A stretch of DNA of 40,012 nt from Flavobacteriales bacterium (GTDB taxonomy: Bacteria > Bacteroidota > Bacteroidia > NS11-12g > UBA955), in contig CANKVN010000010.1 in the NCBI GenBank assembly GCA_947487055.1, positions 1-40,012 on the forward strand, given 5' to 3'. Below the pieces are notes generated by a model, which worked only from the letters and a program-made list of their open reading frames with translations, had not been told where the DNA came from and did not search any database. Shown here piece by piece: positions 19,637-27,611 of this stretch. The position numbers and the translations under genes were made by a program. Every line of letters starts with the position of its first letter. Within the stretch, counting starts at the first letter, position 1.

Positions 19637-20596
19637 TTATTGGGGGCAGAATAAGGTGTATTTCCATTTGGTATCCGAGCTGCCGCCGGTAACCCGCACC
19701 ATGCAGTGGTCGTCCTTGTTGTATTGAAAATCAAAGCTGAGTGCACCGCAGCATGTGGCCGCATTTTTGCCGCCTACAAATCCCTTCACATTGCCATTGA
19801 TTTCGTTGGTAGATGAAACCAGGTTGCCTTCATAAAATACTTCCATTTTGTCGGGTACCGATTCCATGTCATATTCTATCACCACGCGCCCTGATTTATT
19901 GCCCAGAATGTGTTTCTTCTCGGTAATGCCACGTCCGCCAGATTTGGCTGCCTGGCTGCATCCGATGGTGTTGTCGGAATTCAGGCTGTCAATTTTTTTG
20001 CGCAGCCGTTCCACTTCTTCCTGGCAATCGGAACAATTATTTAATTTGAAATTACAACCACTCGGGTTGCATTTTTTAAGCAACAATAGCAAAAGCAGCA
20101 GCAACAACAACCATTTCAGGATATCCCATATTTTGGACAGACAACCATCTGCCTGAGGGAAAAATGGCGGTTTCACGGGTGGTTCCGGTGGATTGGGCTC
20201 CGGGTTTGGCACTGCGGTGGCCTGCTTGATTTTCCCCATAAAAGTACCCTCCAGAATGCCGTAGGTTTTGCCATCAATTTCCCATGAATCTTTTACTTTG
20301 GCATCTTTAATGACAACCTGCTCAAAATCGTGTACGATTTTATCCTGGATATACTGCCTATTACCAGGATTTAATTGGATATTGGTGACGTTATAAAGGA
20401 AAAGCGCATCGCGGTTCAGGTGCTCTTTCGGATTAAAATCCTGCAAGGGCACTATGTCGTGAAGTTCCCCCCTGTATAGCTTTACATGGTGCTTTTCCGG
20501 GCCGGGCATAGCCTGTCCATCCACCAGGGTGCTGCCTTGGTCCGTGTAATAATTACCGCTGAATTTACCTTGAACAAATAAAAATGGAAGCGCCAT
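19637..20596 (-). CDS. single-pass membrane protein with poly-leucine helix and C-terminal beta domain
   Basis: The N-terminal ~125 residues form a soluble domain that opens MALPFLFVQGKFSGNYY. A Pro-rich linker (NPEPNPPEPPVKPP, ~131-144) leads to a membrane helix with eleven consecutive Leu (163-173) bounded by Lys-Trp and Lys-Lys-Cys. After a Cys-rich turn (CNFKLNNCSDC) and a short coiled coil, residues ~233-319 form a beta-sandwich-like domain (SGRVVIEYDMESVPDKMEVFYEG ending KWKYTLFCP) resembling subtilase-associated or lectin-like domains in large secreted proteins. With no signal peptide, the N-domain is likely cytoplasmic and the beta domain outside. It is 13 bases from its upstream gene. 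Confidence 0.72.
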   Translation of the reverse strand: MALPFLFVQGKFSGNYYTDQGSTLVDGQAMPGPEKHHVKLYRGELHDIVPLQDFNPKEHLNRDALFLYNVTNIQLNPGNRQYIQDKIVHDFEQVVIKDAKVKDSWEIDGKTYGILEGTFMGKIKQATAVPNPEPNPPEPPVKPPFFPQADGCLSKIWDILKWLLLLLLLLLLLKKCNPSGCNFKLNNCSDCQEEVERLRKKIDSLNSDNTIGCSQAAKSGGRGITEKKHILGNKSGRVVIEYDMESVPDKMEVFYEGNLVSSTNEINGNVKGFVGGKNAATCCGALSFDFQYNKDDHCMVRVTGGSSDTKWKYTLFCPQ

Positions 20597-20609
20597 GCAG
20601 CCCGTTTGA

Positions 20610-21785
20610 TTAAGCGTTTTTATCCGTTTTTACGAATGAAGCCGGATCTTTCTGAATGTCTTCCTTTTCCTGTTTGGCAAACAGCGTGATCGCTTCCTTG
20701 GCGTTTTCTTCTTCCTTGGAATTCTGATGCTCCACAATGGCGATAATGCGCTTGGGGTTATAGAAACCTTTCATGGTGTGCAGCTTGCTGTTTTCATCGA
20801 TGATGTGCTCGCGGTTAATGCCTTGTTTGGTTTCCAATATCTGGTTAACGTTTTCGCTCATATAATCATAAGGAGATTTAATGAGCATCAGTTTCAGCAG
20901 CACCGGTGCAATTTCAATAAACACAAACATCAAGCGAATCATCCATGCGGGAATAGAAGAGCCGGGAATGGCATGCAGTGCCAGCAGGCGATCCAGCAGG
21001 CCGTGAGATGAGTTGTTTACGGAACTTAGTTCCTTGATTTTGGCTGTTTTTTCATCATCATACACCTGCAGTTTTTTGTCGAGGGCATTGATTTTGGTTT
21101 TGCGTTCTTCAATCCGGCCCATTACCTCAGTGGCCATTCTCTTGAATTCTTCGCACTTGGGGCCACAGCCGCCAAATTCGGTAGCGTTTTCTTTGGCTGC
21201 GCGTTTTTGATAATCTTCGCGTTCTTTTTCAAGGTTCTTTACTTCATCCTCAATGGTGGCTTTGTCTTTATTGAGCTTGTTGAATTCAGGAGACTTGGTG
21301 TAAATATCTTCAATCTTCTTGATTTCGGCCTTTTGTTCTTCCTGATCCAGTTTGTAAAACTGTTTGTCAATTTCCTTCTGAAAAATATACACTTCCAATG
21401 GTGCTGAAATGGTGAAACCCAGGATCATTGCCATGAGCAGGCGGGGAGAGGCATTGCCCAGTTCTTTTGGGGTAATGGTGTCTGTGCCGTCGCCTTTACC
21501 GGTGCTGGACACAATAAAACGGTCCAGGTTAAAGATAATGGCACCCCAAAGCAGCCCTACCGGAACGGCGATAGCTACATTTTCAAAAATGTAGTTGATG
21601 GCAAAAAACATAGACAGGGAGGCCAGTATACCGGTAGCCAAAACGATACCGCCAATACCTACATACTTAACGTGATCGGCATAACTGGAATATTTTAAAA
21701 TATCCTTGTCTGCACCGGCGCACCACCAAAGAAAGCGGGTTGCTCCCGAGGCAGGTTTAGCCGAATAATCTACATGTTCATTCAT
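20610..21785 (-). CDS. DUF4407 membrane protein
   Basis: The 391-residue product matches the DUF4407 layout. A conserved opening (FLWWCAGADKDILKYSSYADHVKY) precedes helices near 46-68 and 72-92, then FNLDRFIVSS, a third helix (LLMAMILGFTISAPLEVYIF), a long charged coiled coil (~140-250), and a fourth helix (WMIRLMFVFIEIAPVLLKLMLI) before a basic/acidic tail. Function of the family is unknown. It is three bases downstream of the previous gene. As the most recognisable member it is the best search handle for finding other copies of this operon. Confidence 0.88.
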   Translation of the reverse strand: MNEHVDYSAKPASGATRFLWWCAGADKDILKYSSYADHVKYVGIGGIVLATGILASLSMFFAINYIFENVAIAVPVGLLWGAIIFNLDRFIVSSTGKGDGTDTITPKELGNASPRLLMAMILGFTISAPLEVYIFQKEIDKQFYKLDQEEQKAEIKKIEDIYTKSPEFNKLNKDKATIEDEVKNLEKEREDYQKRAAKENATEFGGCGPKCEEFKRMATEVMGRIEERKTKINALDKKLQVYDDEKTAKIKELSSVNNSSHGLLDRLLALHAIPGSSIPAWMIRLMFVFIEIAPVLLKLMLIKSPYDYMSENVNQILETKQGINREHIIDENSKLHTMKGFYNPKRIIAIVEHQNSKEEENAKEAITLFAKQEKEDIQKDPASFVKTDKNA

Positions 21786-21788
21786 GGT

Positions 21789-22589
21789 TTATATTGATTT
21801 ATTTATTGTTTGCTGTTGTGTTGAATAATCCGATTCGTTTTCATTATAAAAGTGCCGGATTTGGTTGTATTTGGTGGTGCTGTAGTTGTATACAGCCAGT
21901 ATTTTACGTTCTCCCAAAGCAGTGTGCAGTGCCCTTCTGCTGTCGTTACGCAAAGCCACCGGCTCTGGATTCAACCGGGTGACACCTGCGTTGATTAAGG
22001 AATTGCGGGCGCCTATCATGGGTTTGTCCAGCGAGAAAGGCCTGTTGGTGGGCCACAACCGGCTAAGGGGCTGGGTTTTCAACGAGCGCTCATTGCCCAT
22101 CAGGCTCAATTCACCAAGTGGCGAAACCGCAAGACGGTACAGCTCGTTTTCCGGGATTCGAATGCTGGCTGTTATCTTTTTGCCGTTGAAGCCAGTAGCA
22201 ATGAGGGTGTATTCCGGACTTTCGGTATCAATAATCACGGTTGCGGAGTTGCCTTGCAGGGATTTTCCTACGGGCAGGATGTCGATGTTGCGCGCGCCGG
22301 TTATCTGCCAGATCAATGTTGCGGCACAGCCGTCAATAAATATGCCGTCGCCATCAATCCTGGCATACAGTTCAGCACCTTCTTTGTCCTTGCCCACATG
22401 CACGTGTGGTGTAGATTGCAGTTCGAAAAATGAAATGTGCAGGGGTTCGGGTTTGAGTAAAAACTTGGTGTACCTTACTATCAAGGAGAAATAAGGAATG
22501 ATAACCATACTGAAAACCACCAGGCCAAAGAGCAGCAGTTGTGTGCTTCTTTCCAGTTCGCTGAGCCATTCGAAAAAACTGTACATCAC
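21789..22589 (-). CDS. single-pass membrane protein of the envelope operon
   Basis: One membrane helix near residues 18-42 (LLLFGLVVFSMVIIPYFSLIV) is followed by a soluble beta-rich region (LHISFFELQSTPHVHVG through ATLIWQITGARNIDI, SATVIIDTESPEYTLIATGFNG). The pattern looks like an immunoglobulin-like fold. The polar C-terminal third (SRLWPTNRPFSLDKP, RALHTALGERKI) has no hydrophobic segment. The start overlaps the upstream transglutaminase-like stop by four bases (ATGA), which implies translational coupling. No known family recognised. Confidence 0.72.
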   Translation of the reverse strand: MMYSFFEWLSELERSTQLLLFGLVVFSMVIIPYFSLIVRYTKFLLKPEPLHISFFELQSTPHVHVGKDKEGAELYARIDGDGIFIDGCAATLIWQITGARNIDILPVGKSLQGNSATVIIDTESPEYTLIATGFNGKKITASIRIPENELYRLAVSPLGELSLMGNERSLKTQPLSRLWPTNRPFSLDKPMIGARNSLINAGVTRLNPEPVALRNDSRRALHTALGERKILAVYNYSTTKYNQIRHFYNENESDYSTQQQTINKSI

Positions 22590-23548
22590 ACCAGGGGATT
22601 AATTTCGGTTATCTCGCATGATATCCAGTTGATACTTCCAATGGCAACAGGTGCGGTGGTTTCGATTAATAAATAAGACTTGCCTTTATGGATGATACTC
22701 TCTCCGGCAATACCCAAATCGGAAATGGCTGCCATGGCATGTGCTCCGCTGGTTCTACTGGAATCCGATTTCACCATACAATGCACAATAACGATGTTTT
22801 CAACCGGTATCAGGTGGGATAAAATGGCGGCGAAGAAGAGGGATTTGCTGTCGCAGTCGGCATATCCCAAAATGAAACTTTCCGGAGGTAAACTCAATTC
22901 ATGGTAGTACCAGTCGGCAGAATCAAAGTTGGGCTGTCCGTAAGGAATAAATTGTATGAAATTGAGTGCAGCTTGTACCCGGTTGAAATAGTTGTCCTCG
23001 CCATGCAGGGCAAGCTGCTGTTTCAGGTCTTCGGCGATTTTGCCAGTCAGGGTGTCGTACTGGTTGAATAACTTGTGGTAGGCTACACCCCATTTGCTGT
23101 TGTTATCGAAAAACCAGCCGTTGCTGTTCAGGTGCAGGTCCATTTCGGCCTGGCTCACGCCCCCTGCTATTGAAAGGCCTTTTTCACCAACCACAACCAA
23201 TCTTTTGGGCAATCCAAAAGTGTCTACCTGTTTGGATGTCTCGGTGGGCTCAAGCAATACATGCGATCGGCCCATGATTTTGTTGATTAACGGATATTCA
23301 TAGGTAAAAGAAGCCTGATGACCTTCCAGTTTTCCCACAATAAACCGCTGATAGGCTCCATATTCCTTTGGAGGGGTTTGGTATTCCTTGGTTTTGGTTT
23401 TGTGCTGGGTTAAAAATTCTATCAGGGAAAGATGCGCTTCCGGATTGTATTGTGTGGCATTGCCTCCGCCCCGGTACTGAAATTCGAAACCCGCTAGGTA
23501 TGCAACCAGTATAACGCATATCAAAGGAATCAGAAAAAGACTATTCAT
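22586..23548 (-). CDS. transglutaminase-like protein, first gene of the envelope operon
   Basis: The N-terminal hydrophobic segment (FLIPLICVILVAYLAGFEF) is an uncleaved anchor or signal. The mature domain ends in a papain-like core: a helix (VQAALNFIQFIPYG), catalytic Cys232 (GYADCDSKSLFFAAIL), His270 (TSGAHAMAAI) and Glu296 (SYLLIETTAP). The spacing and the phrase LLIETTAP recall archaeal-type transglutaminase-like proteins. Compared with the second copy downstream (AGDCDTKSLFAMTIL) the Cys block is strikingly similar although the rest differs. A perfect -7 box (TATTTTTG) lies 25 bases upstream, so this is the operon's first gene. Confidence 0.8.
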   Translation of the reverse strand: MNSLFLIPLICVILVAYLAGFEFQYRGGGNATQYNPEAHLSLIEFLTQHKTKTKEYQTPPKEYGAYQRFIVGKLEGHQASFTYEYPLINKIMGRSHVLLEPTETSKQVDTFGLPKRLVVVGEKGLSIAGGVSQAEMDLHLNSNGWFFDNNSKWGVAYHKLFNQYDTLTGKIAEDLKQQLALHGEDNYFNRVQAALNFIQFIPYGQPNFDSADWYYHELSLPPESFILGYADCDSKSLFFAAILSHLIPVENIVIVHCMVKSDSSRTSGAHAMAAISDLGIAGESIIHKGKSYLLIETTAPVAIGSINWISCEITEINPLV

Positions 23549-24826: not shown

Positions 24827-25531
24827 ATGGAACATTTAAAAATTGCGACCGACAATTACGTAGCATTTACGTTTTTTATCGGCACCATGGCCATGATGGC
24901 CGCTTCTGTTTTCTTCTTTTTTGAGTTGAACAACACTTCTCAAAAATGGAGGACTTCTGTGTTGGTTTCTGGTATTATCACCTTTATTGCAGCAGTACAC
25001 TACTACTACATGAGGGGTTATAACCTGGAGACTGGCGATTCACCAACCTTCTTCCGTTATGTGGACTGGTTGCTTACTGTTCCTTTGATGTGCGTTGAGT
25101 TTTACCTCATCACCAAAAAGGCAGGCGCAAAACAAGGTCTGATGTGGAAACTAATCCTGGCTTCTGTTATCATGCTGGTAACAGGCTACTGGGGCGAAGC
25201 CGTTGCACCTAAACAGGCTGCATTCTGGGGCTTGCTTTCAGGTTTGGCTTATTTCTGGATCGTATGGATGGTATGGAAAGGCGAAGTTGCTCAGCTTTCA
25301 AAAGCCAGCAGCCCTGCAGTTCAAAAAGCCATCGATGCGCTTTTGAAATTCGTTGTAATCGGTTGGGGTATCTACCCATTGGGCTACCTGGTTGGAACCG
25401 CTGATGGTCAGTGGTATGCCTTCTTTGGTAACCTGAACCTTAACATGGACATCATCTACAACATTGGTGACGCTGTGAACAAAATTGGATTTGGTCTGGT
25501 TGTTTATGCCTTAAGCAGAACCGAAGATTAA
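24827..25531 (+). CDS. proteorhodopsin-type light-driven proton pump
   Basis: The 234-residue seven-helix protein binds retinal and should pump protons out of the cell in light. In helix C, RYVDWLLTVPLMCVEF gives Asp80 (proton acceptor), Thr84 and Glu91 (donor), the DTE motif of proton pumps. His58 (AAVHYYYMR) matches the Asp-partner His. Asp215 and Lys219 (GDAVNKIGFG) match the counter-ion and the retinal Schiff-base Lys. The spectral-tuning position (Leu/Gln105 in proteorhodopsin) is Met88, usually green-absorbing. I start at ATG 24827 because the in-frame TTG at 24800 lies inside the likely -7 box. A terminator-like hairpin separates it from the retinal-forming gene. Confidence 0.97.
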   Translation: MEHLKIATDNYVAFTFFIGTMAMMAASVFFFFELNNTSQKWRTSVLVSGIITFIAAVHYYYMRGYNLETGDSPTFFRYVDWLLTVPLMCVEFYLITKKAGAKQGLMWKLILASVIMLVTGYWGEAVAPKQAAFWGLLSGLAYFWIVWMVWKGEVAQLSKASSPAVQKAIDALLKFVVIGWGIYPLGYLVGTADGQWYAFFGNLNLNMDIIYNIGDAVNKIGFGLVVYALSRTED

Positions 25532-25551
25532 TTCATAAAAATACTCATTCT

Positions 25552-25589
25552 AAAGGGGTTTCTATCATTCGTGAAGAAACCCCTTTTTT
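25552..25589 (+). terminator. intrinsic terminator or attenuator between rhodopsin and crtY-blh
   Basis: AAAGGGGTTTCT (25552-25563) pairs over 12 bases with AGAAACCCCTTT (25575-25586) around an 11-base loop and runs into six T. The next gene's ATG (25590) is the base after the T tract. Read-through would give a bicistronic mRNA, while efficient termination would leave the fusion gene without an obvious promoter. Confidence 0.85.
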
Positions 25590-27611
25590 ATGCTAGACAT
25601 GCCAGCCTTCGCCGAACATACAAAAGCAGATTACCTCTTTGCAGGAGCAGGTGCTTCTACTGCACTTTTGTTGTTGAGCATGGAACGGCGTGGTTTGCTG
25701 AAAGGTAAGTCTGTGGTGGTTTTGGATCCCAATCCCGAGGCACTCAAACACAAAACCTTTTGCTTTTGGGCTTCCGATAGCGATATCCTGGTTGACCGCT
25801 GCAAAAACCTGATTAGCAACGAATGGAACAATTTGCGTATTGACCGCAAACCCGCAGAAGCCCTGGGCGTGCTCAAATACAGGCGTGTGTCCGGACCTGA
25901 TTTGCACAAAGCGCTTCATGCCCTGATTCAACACAATGGAATACGGTTTGAAACCGAAGCGGTAACAGAAATAAGTGCCATAGAAAATGGTGTTTTGCTG
26001 AAAACCGAACAAGCTACCTGGCAAGCTCAACAAGTATTCGACAGCCGCCCGCCGAGATATTTGCCTGCCGGCCAAGCCGATGTGCATTTGCTGCAGTCGT
26101 TTGTGGGCGTGGTTATTGTTCCCAACGCCGGCATCCCAAATCCTGATTGTATAGACCTCATGGATTTTTCTGTGGAACAGGATGGTTATACCCAGTTTAT
26201 GTATGTTTTGCCGCTCCATTCCGGGGAGTTGTTGATTGAACTGACCCGGTTTGGTCATTCTGCCATTTCAGAGGCCGAAGCGGAGCCTGTTTTGCAAGCC
26301 TATATTCATAAACATTTTGGCGAGGCTGAATGGGTTGGTTCAGAAAAGGGCTGCATTCCCATGAGCACAGCCGCAATCGATGTGTCGGACATTCCCGGTG
26401 TTGTTTATACCGGCGGTAGGGCGGGCATGGTGAAACCCGGTACCGGATATGCATTTAAAAACATGTTTTTTCATGCTGAAAGCATAGCCGATGCAATGGT
26501 TTCCGGGAAGGTGCAAAAGTCCCCAAAATCTCCCGGCAGGTTTCGTTTCTACGACCGGCTGCTGTTGCGTATCCTAAGCCTGCAGCCTTCCAAGGGAAAG
26601 CCCATTTTTCAAACCCTGTTTGCCAAAAACGAAACCGCTGCAGTGTTGCAGTTTCTGGATGAAAAAACCCGGCTATCGCAAGACTTGCGTATCCTGCTGC
26701 GGTTGCCATTTGCGCCTTTCTTGAAAGCACTATGGCAGGATGTTGCCGCACGAAACAGGGGATTGACGGCTTCCCTGGCTGTTTTGCTCGCTTCTGTATT
26801 GCTGTGGTTGTTGCTTGTACTGGCCCCTGATGCTTTTGACAAGATACCATATGCTTTGCTTGCTTTGGGTTTGCTTTTCGTGGGACTTCCGCATGGTGCC
26901 ATCGATCATTTGCTGGAAAGCGGCAATTTGAACGGACGTCCCCAACTGGGTTTTGTCATTCGTTACCTGGCTGCAGCCTTTGCCTACCTGGTGTTTTGGT
27001 TGCTTGTACCAGATGCGGCGTTGTTGTTTTTCTTGGTTTATTCTGCCTGGCATTTCGGTGAAACAGATATGCAACAATGGAAACCGGGTAATGCGGGCTA
27101 TGTAAAAAAGTTGCTTTGGGGTTTGCTTTTGCTTGGTATTTTGTTGCTTGGCCATGCCGGGGAAACCAATGCCATTCTGGAAAATATGCATACCCTGCAG
27201 TTGCCTCTTGATGGCGCAGTTGCCCATAAAACAGCCTTAATACTTGCTGCCGTGGCTGCGATTTGGGCTATTTTCAGTCGCTGTGCGGCATGGATGCTAA
27301 GTGCCTGCATGCTGGCAGTAGGAACACAATTGCCCTTGCCTGCGGCTTTTGGTTTGTATTTTTTGGGGCAGCACAGCCTTAATGGCTGGTTTCACTTGCG
27401 CAAAGGCCTTAACGCCGGTAATGCCTCGTTGTTTAAAAAAGCCTTTCCATTTACTGCAGGTGCCTTTCTGCTGTTGGGTGCTTTGCTGTATAGCATGGAA
27501 GGTGGTTTGTTAACCGCATTTCAAGAAAACTGGCTAACCGGATTTTTTATCTTTATTTCCTGCATCAGTTTGCCCCATGTAATCGCCATGCACAGGTTTT
27601 ATGAATATTAA
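25590..27611 (+). CDS. lycopene beta-cyclase / Blh beta-carotene 15,15'-dioxygenase fusion
   Basis: One frame joins two enzymes. Residues ~14-390 are a CrtY-type lycopene cyclase: a dinucleotide-binding start (YLFAGAGASTALLLL), KTFCFW (55-60), LLIELTRF (214-221) and GMVKPGTGYAFKN (279-291). Residues ~393-673 are a membrane Brp/Blh dioxygenase whose four iron-binding His are visible: His435 (GLPHGAIDH), His488 (AWHFGETD), His595 (GQHSLNGW) and His663 (LPHVIAMHRFY). The first domain makes beta-carotene from lycopene and the second cleaves it to two retinals, feeding the adjacent rhodopsin. Both parts look complete with no frameshift at the join. These are normally separate genes. ATG 25599 is an alternative start. 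Phytoene-pathway genes are not in the window. Confidence 0.93.
   Translation: MLDMPAFAEHTKADYLFAGAGASTALLLLSMERRGLLKGKSVVVLDPNPEALKHKTFCFWASDSDILVDRCKNLISNEWNNLRIDRKPAEALGVLKYRRVSGPDLHKALHALIQHNGIRFETEAVTEISAIENGVLLKTEQATWQAQQVFDSRPPRYLPAGQADVHLLQSFVGVVIVPNAGIPNPDCIDLMDFSVEQDGYTQFMYVLPLHSGELLIELTRFGHSAISEAEAEPVLQAYIHKHFGEAEWVGSEKGCIPMSTAAIDVSDIPGVVYTGGRAGMVKPGTGYAFKNMFFHAESIADAMVSGKVQKSPKSPGRFRFYDRLLLRILSLQPSKGKPIFQTLFAKNETAAVLQFLDEKTRLSQDLRILLRLPFAPFLKALWQDVAARNRGLTASLAVLLASVLLWLLLVLAPDAFDKIPYALLALGLLFVGLPHGAIDHLLESGNLNGRPQLGFVIRYLAAAFAYLVFWLLVPDAALLFFLVYSAWHFGETDMQQWKPGNAGYVKKLLWGLLLLGILLLGHAGETNAILENMHTLQLPLDGAVAHKTALILAAVAAIWAIFSRCAAWMLSACMLAVGTQLPLPAAFGLYFLGQHSLNGWFHLRKGLNAGNASLFKKAFPFTAGAFLLLGALLYSMEGGLLTAFQENWLTGFFIFISCISLPHVIAMHRFYEY

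Follow-up and report, generated by a model that had tools for sequence, protein, structure and literature searches.

The locus and its genes

The window, by which we mean the whole 40,012-nucleotide stretch that was analysed (contig CANKVN010000010.1 of the Flavobacteriales assembly GCA_947487055.1), carries a proteorhodopsin gene followed by a single open reading frame in which a lycopene cyclase (CrtY) is joined to the carotene-cleaving enzyme Blh. The features of this region are as follows.

24827-25531, plus strand: proteorhodopsin apoprotein (start at 24827 inferred; the open reading frame opens at TTG 24800)
25552-25589, plus strand: terminator-like hairpin, a 35-nt stem-loop at 25552-25586 and then a T-run up to the fusion ATG
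25590-27611, plus strand: crtY-blh fusion gene, 673 aa, with ATG start, TAA stop and no internal stops
25635-26729, plus strand: CrtY half (PF05834 match, residues 16-380; FAD-binding fold, GAGAS motif)
26754-26822, plus strand: residues 389-411, the joint together with the opening membrane helix of the Blh half (AlphaFold2 helices and hydropathy)
26868-27593, plus strand: Blh half (PF15461 match, residues 427-668)
26892-26894, 27051-27053, 27372-27374 and 27576-27578, plus strand: codons of His435, His488, His595 and His663 of the Blh half

Searched against CrtY and Blh profiles, as the first-pass annotation had proposed, the frame gave matches above curated cut-offs for both domains. The Pfam family PF05834 (Lycopene_cycl) was matched over profile positions 3-378 of 380 with 136.9 bits (cut-off 23.4, E 1.2e-39) and, in the same frame, PF15461 (BCD), likewise over almost its whole length, with 113.1 bits (cut-off 28, E 2.3e-32), while the NCBIfam model TIGR03753 (blh) was passed with 130.1 against a cut-off of 95.25 over positions 3-259 of 260. 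The CrtY half did not reach the CrtY equivalog TIGR01789 (56.6 bits against 215.2) and also fell under the cut-off of TIGR01790 (89.1 against 209.5). The earlier reading of two consecutive enzymes in one 673-residue frame is thus borne out. The fusion is single in its genome, with no second copy in the 2.34 Mb source draft of 132 contigs.

The adjacency to a rhodopsin, also part of that reading, stands as well: directly upstream and on the same strand lies a gene whose product matches PF01036 (147 bits, Pfam), whose nearest solved chains are 9jov and 9jou, described as 'Proteorhodopsin' (E 6e-84), and whose end at 25531 leaves a gap of 58 nt before the fusion ATG. The pump motif D97/T101/E108 and the Schiff-base lysine are present, and both are invariant in 32 rhodopsins adjoining fusions. 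The colour-tuning position 105 is Met and the fenestration position is Gly, each likewise invariant in 32 fusion-adjoining rhodopsins, and the same Gly occurs in all Bacteroidota proteorhodopsins of one subtree studied (PMC13043013). Since a fenestration Gly lets carotenoid antennae bind, the source cell may need carotenoids both for retinal and as an antenna of its rhodopsin. On the minus strand, positions 19637-23548 hold genes of unknown role, with a DUF4407 membrane protein at 20610-21785 and no Pfam matches at 19637-20596 and 22586-23548.

Predicted structure and conserved residues

An AlphaFold2 model computed from 47 fusions gave one confident single model for the whole chain (mean pLDDT 93.1, pTM 0.83). 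In this model the CrtY half is predicted to adopt an FAD fold over residues 8-389 that resembles geranylgeranyl reductases and related flavoproteins, and comparison of residues 9-385 with 3oz2 aligned 347 residues (Z 21.6, rmsd 4.6). The Blh half modelled alone is all-helical (pLDDT 93.6) and, taken together with its hydropathy peaks, is predicted to be a multi-helix membrane protein; its best fold match is to rhodopsins, with a Z of 5.2 that lies within the chance range for helical bundles. A sequence search of the PDB returned no relatives of either half. At the joint, helices 374-388 and 390-411 abut at residue 389, and the second of these coincides with the strongest hydropathy peak of the protein (394-412). 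The first helix continues into the second, so that the two enzymes appear to be joined end to start and almost without a linker.

Altogether 60 complete fusions were collected, those aligned being 33-47% identical to the window's protein. The first-pass annotation had placed four histidines in an intact Blh active site and had judged both halves complete; His435, His488, His595 and His663 were found at exactly those positions and, together with Asp439, are invariant in 60 of 60 fusions, remaining so when distant stand-alone Blh proteins of 21-27% identity are added to the alignment. The four histidines are presumed to be metal ligands. H602 is present in 53 of the 60. In the CrtY half the GAGAS motif is conserved, and E217 and T219 (within LIELTRF), Q169, M191, E252, P257 and M258 are invariant across the 60 fused and 29 separate CrtY proteins; E217 is the acidic residue of the L-x-E-x-T motif, which we take to be catalytic in CrtY. 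Conservation confined to the fused group is seen at D151 and Q202, both invariant, and at R153 (58 of 60). The segment spanning the joint, residues 380-428, is 42-49 aa long in all 60 fusions, and its sequence is not conserved.

Distribution and genomic context

The survey of fused against separate genes suggested by the first-pass annotation found the fusion to be common. Among 108 genomes of the window's order, 62 have a Blh domain, and in 41 of these 62 it belongs to a CrtY-Blh fusion of 576-715 aa, measured as the open frame around Blh; in the remaining 21 the frame around Blh measures about 285-375 aa, and one or more of these (G068 at least) may be fusions truncated at the end of a contig. 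A sample of 395 genomes from the class contained 72 with a Blh match and 33 fusions in 11 families, and a sample of the phylum added a twelfth family (f89) belonging to another class, the remaining Blh genes there being separate. No viral copy of the fusion was confirmed. A 958-aa frame in G673 was rejected as a fusion and is a read-through in high-GC sequence. Family f30, genus g52 (for example G135 and G453) carries a divergent group of short Blh-like proteins in frames of about 245-282 aa, mostly scoring 65-73 bits.

Blh and rhodopsin occur together in the order: 57 genomes have both, five have Blh only, nine have rhodopsin only and 37 have neither (Fisher p 4e-15). Rhodopsin was detected in 37 of the 41 fusion genomes of the order and not detected in four. 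Its position relative to the fusion was compared in 38 genomes, including the contig-end copy G022. In 21 of them rhodopsin immediately precedes the fusion with the same orientation, in six the two genes diverge, and in 11 they lie on separate contigs, a separation that may in some cases reflect a break in the assembly. Many further families of the class sample also have rhodopsin adjoining the fusion, sometimes downstream of it.

Some genomes depart from one retinal enzyme per rhodopsin. In G036 the fusion lies on contig C1, and a second, shorter Blh (C2:27958-28587) adjoins a rhodopsin (C2:27001-27672), which puts two retinal enzymes in one cell. Within the order, rhodopsin without a detected Blh was seen in G020, G028, G072, G089, G091, G096 and G107, and G089 is listed as 100% complete; scavenging of retinal or an unknown retinal enzyme is possible in such rhodopsin-only genomes.

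Origin and spread of the fusion

The fusion is real and old, and dozens of related bacteria from at least 12 families have it. In a Blh tree, with SH-aLRT support only, the 60 fusions all fall within a single clade, which also holds three rows that are not fused (G074, G325 and G368). The CrtY tree has a well-supported clade of 58 fusions and three broken or split copies, and the two remaining fusions, from family f52 (G203 and G344), lie in an unresolved fork; a CrtY tree constrained to unite the fusions and broken copies was not rejected (p-AU 0.44). Both half-trees are thus compatible with a single origin, and multiple independent fusions are not needed. Members of families f4, f12, f21 and f89 are scattered across the trees, which suggests horizontal transfer, so that a single fusion event with later horizontal spread between families is the most likely history. 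Distances of the two halves are correlated (r 0.69). In one set of 32 the correlation between CrtY and Blh was r 0.80, whereas that between CrtY and rhodopsin was only 0.27, and rhodopsin and enzyme therefore need not always travel together. A 2010 survey noted that CrtY of Bacteroidetes was probably acquired by transfer from proteorhodopsin producers (PMC2889829), which is consistent with this picture of spread.

Where crtY and blh are separate, overlaps of 4-58 nt, some of them dependent on the choice of start codon, are common among the 26 genomes in which both genes were found, and occur for instance in genus g6 and in the alphaproteobacterial MAG L003. Such overlapping pairs likely represent the state that preceded fusion. 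In the opposite direction, G074 is nested among the fusions and has two intact genes split at the joint (L155:1570-1600), with an ATGA overlap beside an A run, as expected from a single-base shift; if it is not an assembly error, this genome is a ready-made control for what fusion contributes. G325 retains only a Blh, which descends from the fused clade. Other candidates for true non-fused members were rejected: in G022, G368 and G429 the gene runs off the end of a contig, and G390 has a frameshift within the cyclase.

The intergenic hairpin and expression

The RNA spanning 25529-25595 is predicted to fold with -19.9 kcal/mol (z -5.7), and the stem alone with -17.9. Of 27 genomes in which the fusion directly follows a rhodopsin gene of the same orientation, 26 carry a hairpin whose folding dG is below -14 kcal/mol, compared with none of 540 shuffles, and the hairpin sequences differ among genomes. 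A simple consensus terminator scan did not list the hairpin at 25552-25586. We infer that it may act as a partial terminator, giving abundant rhodopsin but scarce enzyme, and the short intergenic gap leaves little room in the window for a further promoter. Hairpins of this type also protect mRNA 3' ends. Alternative readings are a stabiliser of the mRNA 3' end or a promoter overlapping the hairpin. In Dokdonia PRO95, with another gene arrangement, crtY and blh are weakly expressed as well (PMC3587595).

These observations bear on the proposal, made when the locus was first read, that a fused enzyme beside the apoprotein gene would match retinal supply to the pump. The conserved hairpin argues for much pump and little, catalytic, enzyme and not for matched output, and the proposal is weakened again by those compared genomes in which rhodopsin is divergent or on another contig. 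What the hairpin offers in its place is a concrete hypothesis for unequal amounts of pump and enzyme.

A likely retinal branch beside other carotenoid genes

The source genome encodes a second, unrelated cyclase, CrtYcd (L161:4490-5218), and its contig C9 carries CrtB, a CruF-like PF04240 gene next to a desaturase of CrtI/CrtD type and, where the contig begins, a CrtI fragment. No CrtZ-like hydroxylase was recognised among its two PF04116 proteins, because their frames of 304 and 430 aa are unlike the short ones of about 150-185 aa found beside crtB in relatives. CrtYcd is present in 38 of the 41 fusion genomes of the order, and the fusion therefore resembles an additional route from lycopene to retinal, a private one and likely a dedicated branch apart from that of CrtYcd. 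CrtYcd is also found in 27 genomes without rhodopsin. Stand-alone Blh without CrtY occurs in eight genomes, all with CrtYcd, one of which (G068) may hold a contig-end fragment.

When Nonlabens CrtY is expressed in Escherichia coli it yields β-carotene, and with CruF mainly 1'-hydroxy-γ-carotene (PMC11855829); a cyclisation intermediate that is released can therefore be diverted, and a fused Blh could shield it. CruF was considered as the cause of fusing and rejected: the CruF-like PF04240 gene is found in 37 of 41 fusion genomes and in 17 of 21 with separate Blh, and as it is just as common with separate Blh, genomics does not make it the cause.

What the fused protein may do

Rhodopsin function hinges on the supply of retinal, and carotenoid intermediates are too hydrophobic for free diffusion. 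Membership of the two families makes it very likely that the fused protein has both activities: the N-terminal FAD-fold half would convert the ends of lycopene to beta-rings and the C-terminal half would split the resulting carotenoid into retinal, to be used by the proteorhodopsin of the upstream gene. The CrtYcd-type cyclase and the CruF-like hydratase of the same genome would serve other carotenoids, while the fusion would be expressed at a low catalytic level by read-through of the hairpin 3' of the rhodopsin gene, having arisen, most likely once, when overlapping crtY and blh genes became joined end to start. We hold this account with some assurance as a whole, namely a bifunctional, membrane-bound retinal maker on a private branch, with low read-through expression, formed from overlapping genes and then spread between families. 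Hand-over or protection of beta-carotene between the halves is plausible. A stronger version, in which the protein is a retinal synthase proper that takes in lycopene and gives out retinal with beta-carotene never equilibrating, insulated from CrtYcd and CruF and with its dosage set by the terminator, is a tentative proposal that we rate as somewhat doubtful; if it holds, the pigments of CrtYcd and CruF possibly include an antenna for the same rhodopsin.

The serious rival, which concerns only the hand-over and to which we give a little less than an even chance, is that fusion is neutral: loss of a stop would have tethered two complete enzymes, beta-carotene would pass into the membrane and be picked up by the Blh half as by any stand-alone Blh, and the benefit would be at most co-expression. 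The poorly conserved sequence of the joint fits such a history, as do the overlaps already present in unfused relatives, the re-split G074 with its whole halves, the lone Blh of G325 and the eight genomes in which stand-alone Blh coexists with the other cyclase. Against this, the fused state has been kept over large divergence in at least 12 families, with convincing losses within the clade only in G074 and G325; the joint has been held at 42-49 aa; and its helix leads straight on into the first of the membrane helices in a model that is confident overall.

The remaining rivals concern the chemistry or the gene itself. The CrtY half might mainly close one ring, so that Blh would make one retinal and an acyclic aldehyde from gamma-carotene, a reading encouraged by its score below the CrtY equivalog cut-off and by CrtYm, a CrtY-type monocyclase known in a flavobacterium (PMC11855829; PMC2889829). 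We consider it unlikely, as it would halve the yield of retinal, and the Nonlabens spongiae homologue, nearer to CrtYm than to Pantoea CrtY, gave beta-carotene in E. coli (PMC11855829). It is very improbable that one half is inactive and the protein a cyclase only or a dioxygenase only: positive evidence for this is nil, and although a second genomic cyclase might free the CrtY half from its task, a half that is not needed would be expected to degenerate in at least some lineages, and all 60 fusions retain the key residues of both halves unchanged. A sequencing or assembly artefact, by which an overlooked stop or shift of frame would make two genes look like one, is a concern for a draft of 132 contigs and was raised earlier as a possible base error that conceals a stop around codon 390. 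Its probability is negligible; it is already refuted by the fused frames of 60 genomes, which come from many families and are 33-47% identical to the window's protein, the same continuous reading being present in 59 other genomes.

With this fusion channelling becomes testable, as relatives offer fused, separate and naturally re-split versions together with a competing pathway. For annotation, a CrtY match in genomes of the fusion type is to be read as retinal-making and not as general pigment synthesis. The fusion could also serve retinal production in engineered hosts.

Relation to known systems

Domain databases very likely already display the CrtY-Blh architecture. The first-pass annotation knew of no characterised example, and full-text searches of largely open-access literature turned up no account of a CrtY-Blh fusion. 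The protein represents a bacterial fusion with a wide distribution, made of two familiar enzymes of consecutive steps. A 2023 paper names CrtBY and CrtIBY as earlier characterised natural fusions, and CrtY-Blh goes unmentioned in its accessible sections (PMC10284914). The CrtIB of Ca. Pelagisphaera phototrophica, encoded in a proteorhodopsin cluster, is likewise a naturally occurring fusion of enzymes that follow one another in the retinal pathway, and differs in uniting earlier steps, a desaturase and a synthase (PMC10284914).

Stand-alone Blh/Brp proteins (TIGR03753, PF15461) share the four invariant histidines and the aspartate and are multi-helix membrane proteins; unlike them, Blh here is the C-terminal half of a larger enzyme. 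The CrtY and CrtYm proteins of Nonlabens spongiae and Flavobacterium P99-3 belong to the same CrtY family, but are unfused and encoded in a myxol/zeaxanthin cluster with cruF, crtD and crtZ (PMC11855829). Proteorhodopsin photosystem operons of the type rhodopsin-crtE-crtI-crtB-crtY-blh, such as that of the alphaproteobacterial MAG L003, have the same enzymes, the same order of crtY then blh and a rhodopsin partner; there crtY and blh are separate genes, with a 10-nt overlap in L003, whereas here they are fused, and the source genome has its crtB, a desaturase gene and cruF on a different contig. The nearest system is the CrtI-CrtB-CrtYcd-Blh protein of Thecamonas trahens (XP_013761525.1; PMC10016063), which, as here, has a lycopene cyclase and a C-terminal Blh in one polypeptide. 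It differs in coming from a eukaryote, in using the unrelated CrtYcd cyclase and in having two more enzymes fused, whereas the fusion described here is bacterial, has an FAD-type CrtY and stands beside a rhodopsin.
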